Of a DNA stretch of 33,268 nucleotides, positions 26,961 through 33,268 are shown in pieces (within the stretch, counting starts at the first letter, position 1; every line of letters begins with the position of its first letter). Position numbers and translations under genes: made by a program. This DNA comes from an uncultured Oscillospiraceae bacterium (GTDB lineage Bacteria; Bacillota; Clostridia; Oscillospirales; Oscillospiraceae): positions 1-33,268 of the forward strand of contig CALXDU010000017.1 in NCBI GenBank assembly GCA_944387145.1, written 5' to 3'. The notes under the pieces are model-generated. The model did no database searches, had not been told where the DNA came from, and saw nothing but the letters and a program-made list of their open reading frames with translations.

Positions 26961-27884
26961 ATGAAGTATGCAATTGTGGATTTGGGTTCCAATACCGTGC
27001 GGCTGTCGCTGTACAACATTCTCAGCGACGGCAGTTTTTCCCTGCTGTTTTCTGAGAAGGAAATGGTGGGACTGAATAACTATATTGTGGATCGCACCTT
27101 GTCTAAGGCCGGCATTCAGCGGGCCTGCCAGGTGCTGTCGCATTTCCAGGGACTGCTGCTGCAGTTCGGCATTTCCCAGATGCAGGTGTTCGCCACCGCA
27201 TCCCTGCGCAATATCCGCAACACCGAAGAGGCGGTAGCCGCCATCAAACGCACCGTGGGTGTGGATGTGGAAGTGATTTCCGGCGCCATGGAAGCGGAAC
27301 TGGGCTATTACGGCGCCATCCGGGATCTGAACATGGAAAACGGCGTGGTTTTTGATATCGGCGGCGGCAGTATGGAGCTGACGGAAATTCAGGGCGGCGC
27401 CGTAGCCAAGGCCCAGAGCATCCCCATCGGCAGCCTGGAACTGTTCAACCGCCATGTGAAGAAAATCTGGCCGAAGAAGCAGGAACTGGAGGAAATCCAT
27501 GCCGACGTGGAGCAGACCATGGAGAAACTGAAGCTTCCCAAGGAGGAAACGCCTCTGGTCTGCGGCGTGGGCGGTACCGCCCGGGCGGTGCTGAAAATCG
27601 CCAACACCCTGCTGGGCAAGCTGGAGACCAACCGGAGCCTGACCATGGAGGAATTTTCCGGGGTCTGCCAGTGCCTGCTGGCCCGGAAGGCGGCAGCCCG
27701 GGATGTGATTTTGAAGGTGTGCCCGGACCGGCTGCACACCATTTTGCCCGGTGTGGTGCTGATGGAGCAGGTGTGCACCGCTCTGAACTGCAAGGTGCTG
27801 TATATCAGCCCCTACGGCGTCCGGGAAGGTTATGTCTACCGGAACCTTCCCAAGCAGAAACAGCCAGGTGATGGTCAGGCATGA
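26961..27884 (+). CDS. ppx: Ppx/GppA-family exopolyphosphatase
   Basis: A 307-residue protein of the ASKHA fold. It has the phosphate-binding motifs VDLGSNTVRLS at the N terminus, ATASLRNIRN near residue 75, and VFDIGGGSMELTEIQGG near 132-148. It is a short Ppx/GppA type, lacking the C-terminal HD-like domain of E. coli Ppx, and hydrolyses terminal phosphates of polyphosphate or of pppGpp. Placement directly before ppk, with an ATGA overlap, favours polyphosphate. AAGGAAGGAG precedes the ATG. The coupled pair lets one transcript make both polyphosphate synthesis and breakdown enzymes. Confidence 0.9.
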   Translation: MKYAIVDLGSNTVRLSLYNILSDGSFSLLFSEKEMVGLNNYIVDRTLSKAGIQRACQVLSHFQGLLLQFGISQMQVFATASLRNIRNTEEAVAAIKRTVGVDVEVISGAMEAELGYYGAIRDLNMENGVVFDIGGGSMELTEIQGGAVAKAQSIPIGSLELFNRHVKKIWPKKQELEEIHADVEQTMEKLKLPKEETPLVCGVGGTARAVLKIANTLLGKLETNRSLTMEEFSGVCQCLLARKAAARDVILKVCPDRLHTILPGVVLMEQVCTALNCKVLYISPYGVREGYVYRNLPKQKQPGDGQA

Positions 27885-30043
27885 ACAGCATGAGAAGATT
27901 CGCCGCCTTCTGGCGGCAGCTGGGTCTGGGAAACAGAGCCGGCTACATAGCGCAGACCCCCGTCAAACAAGAGGAGTTGGAAACGGATATGAAACCCCAG
28001 GAACGAAAAAGATGTTATGTAAACAGAGAGCTGTCCTGGCTGAAATTCAATGAACGGGTGCTGGAAGAAGCGGAGCGGGAGGATGTCCCGCTGTGCGAAC
28101 GGCTGAGCTTTGCCTCTATCTACCAGAGCAACCTGGACGAATTTTTCATGGTGCGCATCGGCTCGCTGAAAGATCAGATTCAGCTGGGAGAAAAGGGCCG
28201 GGACACCAAAACCGGCATGATGCCCCAGCAGCAGATTGATGCGGCTTTGGAGCAGGTGCGGCTTCTGAACCAGCGCAAGGACGAGACGTATCGGCAGCTG
28301 CTGGCCCGGCTGGAGGATGCCGGGGTGCGGCTGGTGGATTTTCATACCATCTCCCAGGAGGACAGCCGCCGTCTGGAAGGGTATTTCACCCGGGAGGTGC
28401 TGCCCCTGCTTTCGCCCATGATTATCGGCAAGCGCCAGCCCTTTCCCTTCCTGCGCAATAAGGAAATCTACGCCGTGGCGGTGCTGGACCGGAAAAACGG
28501 CAAGCGGAAGGTGGGTATCATCTCCTGCGCCACCGGAGTATTCCCCCGGCTGATTACCATTTCCCAGGGCGAGTATATGCTCTCGGAGGAACTGATTCTG
28601 CACTTTTTGCCCCTGGCCTTCAAGGGCTATCAGATTCGGGGGAAGTCTTTGATGCGCCTGACCCGCAGCGCCGATATTGACGCCGACGCGGTCTATGACG
28701 AAGACCTGGACTACCGGGAATTTATGGCGGATCTGGTAAAGCAGCGGAAAAAACTGGAGCCGGTGCGGCTGGAACTGAGCCGCCAGCTCAGCCAGGAGAC
28801 GGTGGAAGAACTGTGCAAAACCCTGGATATGGAGAAAAAAGCGGTATTTGAAAGCGGAACGCCCCTGGATCTGTCCTTCTTCTTCCAGATTCAGGATATT
28901 CTGCGGCAGAATCCCGACTATTTCTACCCCCGCTACACCCCCCAGAAATCCGCCCAGTTCCGGGGCAAGGACCCCTTCCTGCCCCAGATTGTGGAAAAGG
29001 ATAAGCTGCTTGCCTACCCCTTTGACCGGATGGACCCCTTCCTGAAGGTGCTGCGGGAAGCGGCGGCGGACGAAAGCGTGGTTTCCATTAAAGTCACATT
29101 GTACCGGGTAGCCAAGCACAGCCAGGTGGTCAGCGCCCTGATGGAAGCGGCGGAAAACGGCAAGGAAGTGCTGGTGCTGGTGGAACTGAAGGCCCGCTTT
29201 GATGAGGCAAACAACATCGAGTGGTCCCGGCAGCTGGAAGCGGCGGGGTGCAACGTGATCTACGGCCTGCCCGGGTATAAGGTGCACTCCAAGCTGTGCC
29301 TGATTTCCCGGATGGTGGACGGACAGCCCCAGTATATCACCCAGATCGGCACCGGAAACTACAACGAAAAAACCGCCCGGCTGTATACGGACTTTTCCTT
29401 CCTCACCGCAGACCCGGCGATTGGCCAGAATGCTTCGGCGGTGTTCCAGGCCCTGGCAAAGGGAGAAACGGTGCAAAGCAGTGACGTACTGCTGGTGGCG
29501 CCCCACTGTATGCAGAGTCGGATTCTGGAAAAAATCGACCAGCAGATTGCCCGGGCCAAAGGGGGAGAACCGGCCTATATCGGCGTGAAGGTCAACTCCC
29601 TGACGGATAAGACCATTATGGAGCGGCTGATCCAGGCAAGTCAGGCTGGTGTGAAGATTGATATGGTGGTTCGGGGAATCTGCTGCCTGCTGCCCGGCGT
29701 ACCGGGGATGACGGAGAATATCCGCATCATCAGTATTGTGGGCCGGTTCCTGGAACACTCCCGGATTTATATTTTCGGTCAGGGAGAGACGGAAGAGATC
29801 TATATCGCTTCGGCAGACTGGATGACCCGGAATATGCTGCGCCGGGTGGAGATTGGCGTGCCCATTTCCGACCCGGACATCCGCCGGCAGATCCGGCAGA
29901 TGTTTGACACCATGCTCCGGGACAACTGCCAGGCCCGTCAGCTGCACAGCGACGGTTCCTATACCCGAGTGTCACAACAGGGGCAGGCAGTGGATTCTCA
30001 GGAACTGTTCTGCCAGTGGGCCAAGGAGCAGGCACCGGAATAA
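27881..30043 (+). CDS. ppk1: Polyphosphate kinase 1
   Basis: A 720-residue Ppk1 that reversibly makes polyphosphate from ATP. The N-terminal domain starts YVNRELSWLKFN, the head domain follows, and two phospholipase-D-like domains carry the catalytic histidines: His469 in GYKVHSKLCLI (autophosphorylated) and His626 in RFLEHSRIYIF. The C terminus has ASADWMTRNMLRR and GVPISDP. The start at 27881 overlaps the ppx stop but adds 36 residues of Arg-rich sequence that known family members usually lack. An ATG at 27989, with AGGAG 12 nt before it, would give 684 residues, close to E. coli's 688. The true start is uncertain; the rest of the gene is intact. Confidence 0.95.
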   Translation: MNSMRRFAAFWRQLGLGNRAGYIAQTPVKQEELETDMKPQERKRCYVNRELSWLKFNERVLEEAEREDVPLCERLSFASIYQSNLDEFFMVRIGSLKDQIQLGEKGRDTKTGMMPQQQIDAALEQVRLLNQRKDETYRQLLARLEDAGVRLVDFHTISQEDSRRLEGYFTREVLPLLSPMIIGKRQPFPFLRNKEIYAVAVLDRKNGKRKVGIISCATGVFPRLITISQGEYMLSEELILHFLPLAFKGYQIRGKSLMRLTRSADIDADAVYDEDLDYREFMADLVKQRKKLEPVRLELSRQLSQETVEELCKTLDMEKKAVFESGTPLDLSFFFQIQDILRQNPDYFYPRYTPQKSAQFRGKDPFLPQIVEKDKLLAYPFDRMDPFLKVLREAAADESVVSIKVTLYRVAKHSQVVSALMEAAENGKEVLVLVELKARFDEANNIEWSRQLEAAGCNVIYGLPGYKVHSKLCLISRMVDGQPQYITQIGTGNYNEKTARLYTDFSFLTADPAIGQNASAVFQALAKGETVQSSDVLLVAPHCMQSRILEKIDQQIARAKGGEPAYIGVKVNSLTDKTIMERLIQASQAGVKIDMVVRGICCLLPGVPGMTENIRIISIVGRFLEHSRIYIFGQGETEEIYIASADWMTRNMLRRVEIGVPISDPDIRRQIRQMFDTMLRDNCQARQLHSDGSYTRVSQQGQAVDSQELFCQWAKEQAPE

Positions 30044-30152: not shown

Positions 30153-31478
30153 TCAGATACTTTCTTTCACCACGGCAAGGCAGTGGATGCCATATCGGGC
30201 CAAAACCGCAAGGGCGTCGCCGGAGATTCGCTCTCCGCTGACCACCACCGGAACCGCTGGGGGGCAGGAGACTGTGGGAGCGCCGCAGATGCGCCCAAGG
30301 GCCTGGGACAGGGGAACTTCTTCCCAGGGGGAAAGCAGCGCCTGTCGGATGGACAGGACACGCTCCGGAGGGGCCATGGTGGATACAGTCATGGGCTGAG
30401 CCGGGCAGGGACACTGGGAAAGACCCTGGGCCGCCCGGAGAAAGTCTTCCTTTCGATTTCCCGGAGAAGCCATCAGCACCAGATAGTCCGGGTCTGCATA
30501 CTCCCATTCCACTCCCGCTTGCTTGACCCGCCGGGCAAGCTCCGTGCCCGGATACTCAGGGGAGGGAGAACAGACCACAATTTTCAGCGGCTCGCTCTTT
30601 GCCACCGTCCAGCCCTGACGGGAAAGCTGCTGCTTCAGCTCCGTGGCCCGGGTGACAGTCAAGGCAAACTGCTGCCTGGCATCCTGGGATAAAAACCGGT
30701 TGCAAAGATCCAGCGACTGCAAAATCAGGTAAGAAGGACTGGTGGAACCGAACAGCGCCAGGGCCTGCCGGGCTGCCAGATCTCCCACAAAATCCCCGGC
30801 AAGATGCAGATAAGCGCCGCCGGTGAGGACAGGGAGGGTCTTGTGGGCGGAGTCGCAGCAAAGGTCGGCGCCCAAATCCATGGGATGCTGGGGCGTGGGC
30901 AAAAAGTGCAGGTAAGCCCCATGGGCATTGTCCACCAGAAGCAGTACCCCATGCCGGTGACAAACTTCGGAAAGTTCGGCAATGGGCTGAATGTGCCCCA
31001 GGTAGTCCGGGGAGGTCAGATACACTCCCGCAGGCGGCGGGTCCATTTGAGACAGGGCCTGCTCCAGCATCTCCGGGGTTACGTCACAGCGCAGCAGCTG
31101 ATAGGGCTGGGGCCACAGCCACTGCACAGATAAGTCCAGCAGCGCCGCTGCGTGGACAAAGGCCTTGTGGGCATTCCGGGCTGCCAGAATGGTTTTCCGG
31201 CCTGTGGCCTGGAGGGCCAGGTGCAGCATGGCCTTCAGGCACTGGGAAGAGCCGCCGGCGCAGTAGTAGGTGTGCCGCGTCCCGAACAGGGACGCGGCAT
31301 TGCGTTCGCTCTGGGCAATAATTCCGTCAGCTTCATACAGAGAATCCGCACCCTGGATTTCCGTAATGTCCAGATTTTCACAGCCCAAAGGGCCTGCACC
31401 CTTGTGACCGGGCATGTGGAACCGGACAGGGTCTGCGGCGGCGTAGCGGCTGACAAAATCGAAAATCGGTGTGTTCAT
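30153..31478 (-). CDS. Orn/Lys/Arg decarboxylase-like PLP enzyme
   Basis: A 441-residue fold-type I PLP enzyme related to Orn/Lys/Arg decarboxylases. The N-terminal RFHMPGHKG is the family entry motif, IQGADSLYEADG follows, then YYCAGGSSQC near 71-80 for cofactor phosphate binding, LVDNAHGAYLHF with Asp183, and CDSAHKTLP with the PLP lysine Lys213. A short C-terminal domain (about 330-441) is present. It is at the short end for the family, whose members usually exceed 450 residues. In many Clostridia a gene of this type stands near tmk and holB. Here it is downstream of the SCIFF maturase, whose stop overlaps its ATG (ATGA), so the two are cotranslated. Substrate not assignable. Confidence 0.87.
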   Translation of the reverse strand: MNTPIFDFVSRYAAADPVRFHMPGHKGAGPLGCENLDITEIQGADSLYEADGIIAQSERNAASLFGTRHTYYCAGGSSQCLKAMLHLALQATGRKTILAARNAHKAFVHAAALLDLSVQWLWPQPYQLLRCDVTPEMLEQALSQMDPPPAGVYLTSPDYLGHIQPIAELSEVCHRHGVLLLVDNAHGAYLHFLPTPQHPMDLGADLCCDSAHKTLPVLTGGAYLHLAGDFVGDLAARQALALFGSTSPSYLILQSLDLCNRFLSQDARQQFALTVTRATELKQQLSRQGWTVAKSEPLKIVVCSPSPEYPGTELARRVKQAGVEWEYADPDYLVLMASPGNRKEDFLRAAQGLSQCPCPAQPMTVSTMAPPERVLSIRQALLSPWEEVPLSQALGRICGAPTVSCPPAVPVVVSGERISGDALAVLARYGIHCLAVVKESI

Positions 31479-32851
31479 CCCAGCTCTTTCTGGGCAATCT
31501 GGAGCATGATGGCGCACTCAATGCGCTTTTTGAACAGCTCACAGCCCTGGTGGTAAACACCGCTGATGCTGCCGGTGGCGTGGTAAGCGTTGGCAGCACA
31601 GCCGCCGGAGCAGTACAGCCGTGCCCAACAGTCCCGGCAATCCGGGCGGGAGTAGGCATTGCAGCTGCGGAATTCCTGACGGATGGCCTCGTTGGTGATG
31701 CCGTTCCAGATATCGCCCAGCTTGTACTTCTCTTCGCCCACGAACTGATGGCAGGGGTACAGATCGCCCCAGGGGGTCACAGCCACATATTCCGTGCCGC
31801 TGCCGCAGCCGGACAGACGCTTGTAGATGCACGGGCCGCCGCTCAGATCCAGCATGTAGTGGTAGAAGGTGAAGGGACGGCCTTCCTTGCGCCGCTTGAG
31901 CATTTCCTCGGCCAGAAGTTCATACTGCTCCTTGACCACCTGGATATCCTCGTCGGTCAGGGCAGCCGGGTCACCGGGGGCGCAGACCACCGGCTCCATG
32001 CTCAGCCGGTCAAAGCCCAGATCCGCCATGTGCAGCAGATCTTTGGTAAAGTCCGGATTGGCATGGGTGAAGGTGCCGCGCATGTAATATTCCTTGTCTC
32101 CACGACGCTTCACAAATTCCTGGAACTTGGGAACAATCCGGTCATAGCTTCCCTTGCCGGCATAGTCCACCCGCAGACGGTCATGAATCTCCTTGCGGCC
32201 GTCCAGACTCAGAACCACGTTGTGCATTTCCTTGTTGCAGAAATCGATTACATCGTCGTCCACCAGCATGCCGTTGGTGGTGAGGGTGAAGCGGAAGTTC
32301 TTGTTGTAAATCTTCTCCTGCTCCCGGGCGTAGGCCACCAACTGCTTGACCACGTCCCAGTTCATCAGAGGCTCGCCGCCGAAGAAGTCCACCTCCAGAT
32401 TCCGGCGGCTGCCGGAATTGGCGATGAGAAAATCAAAGGCCTGCTTTCCTACCTCGTAGGACATCAGCGCCCGATCGCCATGGTATTTTCCCTGGCTGGC
32501 GAAGCAGTAAGAGCAGTTGAGGTTGCAGGTATGGGCCACATGCAGACACATGGCTTTGATGACCTGGGGGCTGTGTTCCTTGTGGGTGGCGAGATCTTCA
32601 AAGGAATCCGGGCTGAAGAGCTTGCCCTGGGCTTCCAGAGCCTGAATATCTTCCAGACAGGCCCGGATTTCTGCTTCGTTGACCCCTTCCAGGTGACCAT
32701 ACTGCGCAAGCGTCTGGGCAATGAGGGCATCGGTGGGGGTGGTTTTGTATCCGGCAATCAGGTCGTATGCCACCTCATCCACCACATGGATGGAGCCGGA
32801 GCAGGAATCCAAAACAATGTTATATCCATTAAGCTTGTACTGATGTATCAT
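31475..32851 (-). CDS. SCIFF peptide thioether maturase (radical SAM/SPASM)
   Basis: A 458-residue radical SAM enzyme that installs a thioether link in the SCIFF peptide. An N-terminal peptide-binding (RRE-like) region (about 1-95) starts MIHQYKLNGYNIVLDSCSGS. The radical SAM cluster motif is Cys109-x3-Cys113-x2-Cys116 (CNLNCSYC), followed by DFFGGEPL and TLTTNGM. The C-terminal SPASM part has the cysteines expected to hold two extra 4Fe-4S clusters (YPCHQF, CNAYSRPDCRDCWARLYCSGGC). Length and motifs match CteB-type maturases. The strong AGGAGG site is 4 nt before the ATG. The precursor gene is directly upstream across a terminator-like hairpin. Confidence 0.95.
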   Translation of the reverse strand: MIHQYKLNGYNIVLDSCSGSIHVVDEVAYDLIAGYKTTPTDALIAQTLAQYGHLEGVNEAEIRACLEDIQALEAQGKLFSPDSFEDLATHKEHSPQVIKAMCLHVAHTCNLNCSYCFASQGKYHGDRALMSYEVGKQAFDFLIANSGSRRNLEVDFFGGEPLMNWDVVKQLVAYAREQEKIYNKNFRFTLTTNGMLVDDDVIDFCNKEMHNVVLSLDGRKEIHDRLRVDYAGKGSYDRIVPKFQEFVKRRGDKEYYMRGTFTHANPDFTKDLLHMADLGFDRLSMEPVVCAPGDPAALTDEDIQVVKEQYELLAEEMLKRRKEGRPFTFYHYMLDLSGGPCIYKRLSGCGSGTEYVAVTPWGDLYPCHQFVGEEKYKLGDIWNGITNEAIRQEFRSCNAYSRPDCRDCWARLYCSGGCAANAYHATGSISGVYHQGCELFKKRIECAIMLQIAQKELG

Positions 32852-32874
32852 GCGTTCCTCCTGTTATGCGCATA

Positions 32875-32902
32875 CAAAAAGCCGCCTGACTGCGACGGCT
32901 TT
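32875..32902 (-). terminator. Leaky terminator between SCIFF precursor and maturase
   Basis: On the minus strand, AAAGCCG pairs with CGGCTTT (11-nt loop) followed by TTTG. It lies 8 bp after the precursor stop and 21 bp before the maturase ribosome-site region. It may lower maturase output relative to the peptide. Confidence 0.75.
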
Positions 32903-32910
32903 CTGTGTAT

Positions 32911-33060
32911 TTACTTGTTTGCGTCCTTCTCGCACTGCTGGTTGACAACACCGCAGGAAGTCTTGCAGGCGGACTGGCAGGAAGTCTGGCACTCACCGCA
33001 GCCGCCGGTCTTGGCGCTCTGGCACAGGTTGCGGGTCTCGATCGTCTTGATTCTTTCCAT
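32911..33060 (-). CDS. SCIFF ribosomal peptide precursor
   Basis: A 49-residue peptide of the SCIFF family (six cysteines in forty-five residues), a near-universal RiPP of Clostridia. The leader MERIKTIETRNL matches the usual (M)KHIKT-type start. The core has Cys21, Cys24, Cys28, Cys32, Cys36 and Cys43 in the CGECQTSCQSACKTSC and NQQCEKD blocks, plus an extra Cys13. In the studied CteA peptide I recall the thioether joins Cys32 to Thr37; here the residue after KTSC is Gly37, not Thr. A GGAG site lies 8 nt before the ATG at 33060. The frame opens earlier at 33141, but those 27 codons contain a hydrophobic stretch unrelated to SCIFF and overlap the promoter. The function of SCIFF is unknown. 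Confidence 0.92.
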   Translation of the reverse strand: MERIKTIETRNLCQSAKTGGCGECQTSCQSACKTSCGVVNQQCEKDANK

Positions 33061-33160: not shown

Positions 33161-33268
33161 TCCAATTCCAGGCCCGGCAAAACGCTGGCGGTGTAGGTGT
33201 TACAATATGGCAATAGTAAACCCACTCTTTTGAAAGAGAGCTTCAGCGTCTGGGGATTCGGCACAAAC
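33161..33268. other. Unassigned intergenic sequence at the window edge
   Basis: I see no gene here. The plus strand has an extended -10-like TGTTACAAT (33198-33206). An ACGCTG/CAGCGT pair (33182-33187, 33244-33249) encloses a CTCTTT-TG-AAAGAG hairpin (33225-33238), so a structured leader or small RNA starting towards the right is possible. The only ATG (33208) reads eight codons. I could not match it to a riboswitch class I know. Confidence 0.35.

Follow-up and report, generated by a model that had tools for sequence, protein, structure and literature searches.

How a SCIFF (six-cysteine) peptide is cross-linked when it carries glycine at a position reported to hold the acceptor threonine is the question raised by a locus at the end of a 33,268-nucleotide stretch of DNA from an uncultured Oscillospiraceae bacterium (the window). 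As summarized in two reviews, the thioether was assigned to Cys32 and Thr37 in vitro, for both Tte1186a and CteA, whereas co-expression of CteA and CteB in Escherichia coli (Hudson 2019) gave a link from Cys32 to the gamma carbon of Thr34. Threonine deuterated at the alpha and beta positions alone was used for CteA, a 2-Da loss in place of one of 3 Da indicating the gamma carbon. One of the two reviews calls this discrepancy between the acceptors unclear, and a further review gives the thermocellin link only as Cys-Thr, from sulfur to gamma carbon. The original prediction took Thr37 as the known acceptor, which agrees with the two in vitro studies but, going by the reviews, not with the co-expression study. 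Its numbering of CteA was right: a structural paper describes an 18-residue leader and a core whose Cys3 binds auxiliary cluster I and whose Cys14 is the reactive cysteine; the two correspond to Cys21 and Cys32, the latter being the fourth cysteine.

The minus-strand open reading frame at 33060..32911 translates as MERIKTIETRNLCQSAKTGGCGECQTSCQSACKTSCGVVNQQCEKDANK, in which residues 32 to 37 are C32-K-T34-S-C36-G37, followed by valine. This confirms the glycine noted earlier after CKTSC, which is shared by 105 peptides. In the CteA register, the window peptide has Cys21, Cys32, Thr34, Cys36, and Gly37. It scores 76.4 bits against the SCIFF model TIGR03973 (cutoff, 50) and 76 bits against PF13165 (cutoff, 27), and its six core cysteines (Cys21, 24, 28, 32, 36, and 43) lie within about 45 residues. 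Cys21 is the first and Cys32 the fourth core cysteine; with an additional leader cysteine, Cys13, Cys32 is the fifth of seven overall. The maturase gene adjoins the peptide gene on the same strand and starts 59 bases past the peptide stop. Peptides of the T37 type carry threonine at 37; the window peptide has Gly37 instead, and its maturase lies inside a separate G37 clade. The contig (G000:C17, locus L001) ends at 33268, just upstream of the peptide gene, and the readable neighborhood is the downstream side. As judged from the sequence, the locus holds a genuine pair of genes, one for a SCIFF peptide and one for the enzyme that matures it (Table 1).

Table 1. Positions of the SCIFF gene pair, its key residues, and neighboring features in the window
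Feature	Position	Strand	Evidence
SCIFF (six-cysteine) precursor peptide, 49 aa, G37 subtype	32911..33060	-	TIGR03973 76.4 bits, PF13165 76 bits; ORF reading
Extra leader Cys13, common in G37 subtype	33022..33024	-	Present in 71 G37 peptides; at that register none in 149 T37 pairs compared
Cys32 codon TGC, thioether donor by homology with CteA	32965..32967	-	Invariant in 287/287 peptides; donor role from reviews
Thr34 codon ACT, most likely thioether acceptor (gamma carbon)	32959..32961	-	Invariant in 287/287; SCIFFs with another residue here absent from 391 genomes; reviews of Hudson 2019 give Cys32-Thr34 for CteA
Gly37 codon GGT, Thr-to-Gly subtype position	32950..32952	-	Thr 182, Gly 105, no others; single change on maturase tree
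Intergenic hairpin then U run (attenuator-like), between peptide and maturase	32874..32906	-	MFE -19.8 kcal/mol, z -3.47; terminator-like scan match
SCIFF maturase, RRE + radical SAM + SPASM domains, 458 aa, CteB/ScfB family	31475..32851	-	TIGR03974 766 bits; 5wgg E 3.7e-164
Maturase Tyr330-His-Tyr332; most T37-type enzymes have Phe/Phe	31856..31864	-	Residues specific to G37 clade stem branch
Orn/Lys/Arg-decarboxylase-like ORF	30153..31517	-	Sequence reading
ORFs like exopolyphosphatase (Ppx/GppA) and polyphosphate kinase	26961..30043	+	Sequence reading

The maturase far exceeds the TIGR03974 cutoff of 425 bits, and its fold is settled by its best structural match, a full-length alignment with CteB (5wgg). 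The SCIFF maturase family is the best model, ahead of the sactisynthase RumMC model (117 bits), and the PapB family is third (274 bits). The CX3CX2C motif (Cys109, 113, and 116) and the SPASM cysteines (Cys341, 349, 367, 405, 408, 414, 418, and 437) are invariant in all eight aligned relatives, and the earlier statement that the enzyme has the expected cluster cysteines holds. At its 3' end the maturase gene overlaps the decarboxylase-like open reading frame, and the two polyphosphate-related open reading frames overlap each other by 4 bases.

SCIFF loci were collected by three routes: by profile from 60 relatives, by profile from 398 evenly drawn genomes of the phylum with the lowest scorers included, and as 80 loci found through the maturase alone, which are those of the closest maturases and involved no selection on the peptide. 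Among the 287 peptides collected, C32-K33-T34-S35 is invariant (287/287). Position 37 is threonine in 182 and glycine in 105, with no third residue, totals that are weighted toward near relatives. Gly37, whose frequency the original prediction had proposed to score by alignment, makes up 8/180 of the even phylum sample, 20/30 of the relatives, and 77/77 of the maturase-first loci. It was found under ten family codes out of 113, and both types occur in two of the ten, the window's own family being one of these. Genomes without the peptide were also without a maturase above the cutoff, the one exception (G137) having a maturase match from base 3 of a contig. Within the window's genus (G001-G036), SCIFF is patchy, occurring in 21 of 36 congeners, and some nearly complete genomes (G002, G011, G013, and G018) have neither the peptide nor an over-cutoff maturase. 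The loci L071 and L074 encode a double precursor with two leader-core modules in one open reading frame (e.g., MNRIQSIETRDLRNAEGGCGECQTSCQSACKTSCGVANQPCESTGRIRTITTRGLRNAEGGCGECQTSCQSACKTSCGVANQPCERN).

A profile-free scan of the DNA of 391 genomes of the class found the CQSACKTS pattern (Thr codons at x of CQSACK-x-S) in 319. Non-Thr codons at this site gave nine matches in the 391 genomes, none of them in a SCIFF-encoding frame; by this pattern, no SCIFF peptide without Thr34 had been missed by the profile search. Selection acts on the amino acid at positions 34 and 37, since the G37 clade draws on all four codons for Thr and all four for Gly. Over its 23-codon core, the window peptide shows a mean of 7.3 synonymous and 3.4 nonsynonymous differences from the clade, against about 14 and about 55 sites, respectively; the core of the G37 clade is under strong purifying selection. 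That Gly37 is a local oddity, an error, or the mark of a decaying gene is ruled out by the 105 peptides, the four Gly codons, and this selection. Because Thr34 never varies, it is a likelier partner for Cys32 than Gly37. Its invariance fits an acceptor at 34 and is not proof of one, because conservation is as high, or almost so, at Lys33, Ser35, Gln29, and Ala31. Cys36 was lost (to Ser, Leu, or Ile) with CKTS kept in eight peptides (L030, L165, L171, L179, L195, L200, L218, and L281) and is thus dispensable.

The conservation of the core also bears on whether other or additional links are made, for example, from Cys24 to Thr26 or from Cys28 to a nearby residue. The C-Q-T at 24 to 26 mirrors the C-K-T at 32 to 34, Thr26 is present in 105/105 G37 peptides versus 99/182 T37 peptides, and the use of other donor cysteines is left open by a review. 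However, Thr26 is not specially marked, because the core sequences of the G37 clade barely vary along their whole length (15 distinct cores), and the characterized SCIFF members are reported to give single-link products; we regard such links as unlikely.

The change at position 37 is mirrored in the enzymes. In a tree of 196 maturases that made no use of the peptide, there is exactly one change between Thr and Gly, and all G37 enzymes fall into a single clade (support, 100), which answers the earlier question of whether the maturases of Gly37 peptides are a distinct group. IQ-TREE with the LG+C20 mixture model on 70 rows recovered the same single change and the same clade, and free exchange of glycine and threonine at 37 is ruled out by the two analyses. 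The G37 clade is spread over ten families and nested among T37 enzymes, which makes Thr to Gly the likely direction; CteB is placed on the T37 side. By descent of the sequences, then, the G37 peptides form a natural subtype, of single origin, within a known family. The core motif strings had no match in the literature searched, some key papers lying outside that search, and the subtype is apparently undescribed as far as that literature goes. The locus L280 (genome G079, 6.8 Mb, of a distant family) holds a G37 pair and L252 (G124, of the window's own family) a T37 pair, a pattern that suggests transfer of the gene pair; the G37 pairs in distant families likewise suggest that peptide and enzyme move together. 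At L092 (L092:1-1453), a G37-clade-like maturase is directly preceded by an unrelated open reading frame, with no SCIFF peptide in the 1,453 upstream bases, and is possibly an orphan.

Maturase changes confined to the stem branch of the G37 clade include those to Asn112, which is flanked by two radical SAM cysteines, to Tyr330 and Tyr332 (both from Phe), and to His424 and Phe440. Of the 18 positions fixed in the clade, nine are no more than 6 residues away from a cluster cysteine (hypergeometric p 0.02), although the T37 sister clade has several of the 18 as well and the clades used as controls are too small. That sister group (L111, L227, L233, and L239) already carries several of the G37-clade residues, and the case for co-adaptation limited to the active site is weak, the enrichment being modest.

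A one-time switch, paralleled by a clade of maturases that carry fixed differences beside cluster cysteines, is consistent with an acceptor that differs by subtype, being Thr37 in T37 peptides and Thr34 in G37 peptides, with a change in ring size when Thr37 was lost. Thr37 is strictly conserved in T37 peptides (182/182), and the in vitro Cys32-Thr37 reports for Tte1186a and CteA, as the reviews give them, point in the same direction. Such a division nevertheless seems rather unlikely: co-expressed CteA, itself a T37 peptide, is reported by the reviews to be linked at Thr34, and the presence of several of the maturase differences in the T37 sister clade means that they do not closely track the switch. 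Thr37 as the acceptor rule for the whole family is also unlikely.

The original prediction raised the possibility that the Cys32 sulfur bonds to the Gly37 alpha carbon, forming a sactionine. The spacing would equal that of the reported Cys32-Thr37 ring, glycine is strictly kept at this position (105/105), and glycine serves as an alpha-carbon acceptor in streptosactin (Cys31-Gly34), a precedent for such an acceptor. Against this, the characterized SCIFF maturases make non-alpha links, the maturase of the window is best described by TIGR03974 rather than by the sactisynthase RumMC model, and an invariant threonine is available two residues from the donor, so that a link at Gly37 appears very improbable. 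The earlier argument that the peptide must be linked at glycine, at Thr34, or in a different pattern stands in part, since a side-chain link at Gly37 is impossible and Thr34 is both invariant and, per the reviews, the published acceptor in co-expression; it does not force unusual chemistry, and a shift to the glycine alpha carbon is unsupported. That the G37-clade maturases react differently from CteB by either route, through a Cys32-Gly37 alpha-carbon link or through replacement of Thr37 by Thr34 as the acceptor, coinciding with the switch, is doubtful. If true, it would be a change of reaction outcome within the SCIFF family, recorded in both peptide and enzyme.

The reading we prefer, with a probability of about 0.65, is that the window encodes an ordinary SCIFF ranthipeptide of the G37 subtype, cross-linked between Cys32 and Thr34, with residue 37 as a site co-adapted with the maturase. 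Leader residues 1 to 18 would be bound by the N-terminal RRE domain of the maturase, as shown for CteB, and a 5'-deoxyadenosyl radical would be generated at the CX3CX2C cluster. The enzyme would then bond the gamma carbon of Thr34 to the Cys32 sulfur, which is probably held by auxiliary cluster I. In the G37 subtype, residue 37 would not be an acceptor; it would be a substrate-fit position at which a single switch from threonine to glycine accompanied changes in the enzyme. Observed here are the gene pair, its conservation, the one-time switch, and the clade of G37 maturases, whereas the Cys32-Thr34 gamma-carbon link of CteA comes from the literature; by analogy, the same link would be made in the window peptide. 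This link is supported by the invariant CKTS motif, by intact maturases across the whole Gly37 clade, and by the co-expression result. The absolute conservation of Thr37 in T37 peptides, where it must be important, counts against this link, and because of it a link at 34 in T37 members is not proven. The in vitro mapping to Thr37 also stands against Cys32-Thr34, as does the possibility of different chemistry in a G37 clade with its own fixed residues. Linkage at Thr34 is the simplest account, agreeing with every peptide collected and needing no new chemistry.

Two further features were seen in the gene pair. Leader Cys13 and Cys17 of the maturase RRE domain (32801..32803) co-occur in 64 of 68 Cys13-bearing G37 pairs (Fisher p 1e-8), and a thiol contact between leader and RRE domain through these residues is possible. 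A functional pairing is not separable from shared descent, with Cys13 changing only about twice on the tree. An element comparable to the intergenic hairpin and U run is found at 93/100 G37 loci and 92/155 T37 loci (93% versus 59%) and in 11% of shuffled gaps; it probably lowers expression of the maturase relative to that of the peptide.

G37 peptides are natural substrates without Thr37 and could separate the published Thr34 and Thr37 assignments, and a single switch tied to one maturase clade provides a short list of enzyme residues for substrate specificity. The closest known system is CteA/CteB (thermocellin, Clostridium thermocellum; PDB 5wgg and 5why), which shares with the window the donor Cys32, the core numbering (Cys21 and Cys32), the candidate acceptor Thr34, and a maturase alignable over its full length (5wgg, E 3.7e-164). 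It differs in that CteA has Thr37 whereas the window peptide has Gly37, and the window and most G37 peptides carry the leader Cys13. Tte1186a/Tte1186, the SCIFF system of Caldanaerobacter subterraneus, likewise combines a precursor and maturase with donor Cys32, but its link is reported, per the reviews, at Thr37, which the window peptide does not have. Streptosactin (GggA/GggB) is also a radical SAM thioether peptide, and its Cys-to-Gly alpha-carbon link is the precedent for the Gly37 proposal; it is, however, a sactipeptide from streptococci made by a different maturase family. Freyrasin (PapA/PapB) is a ranthipeptide whose maturase is an RRE/SPASM radical SAM enzyme of the PapB family, but the peptide contains six Cys-X3-Asp beta-carbon links, whereas the core of the window peptide has no aspartate.
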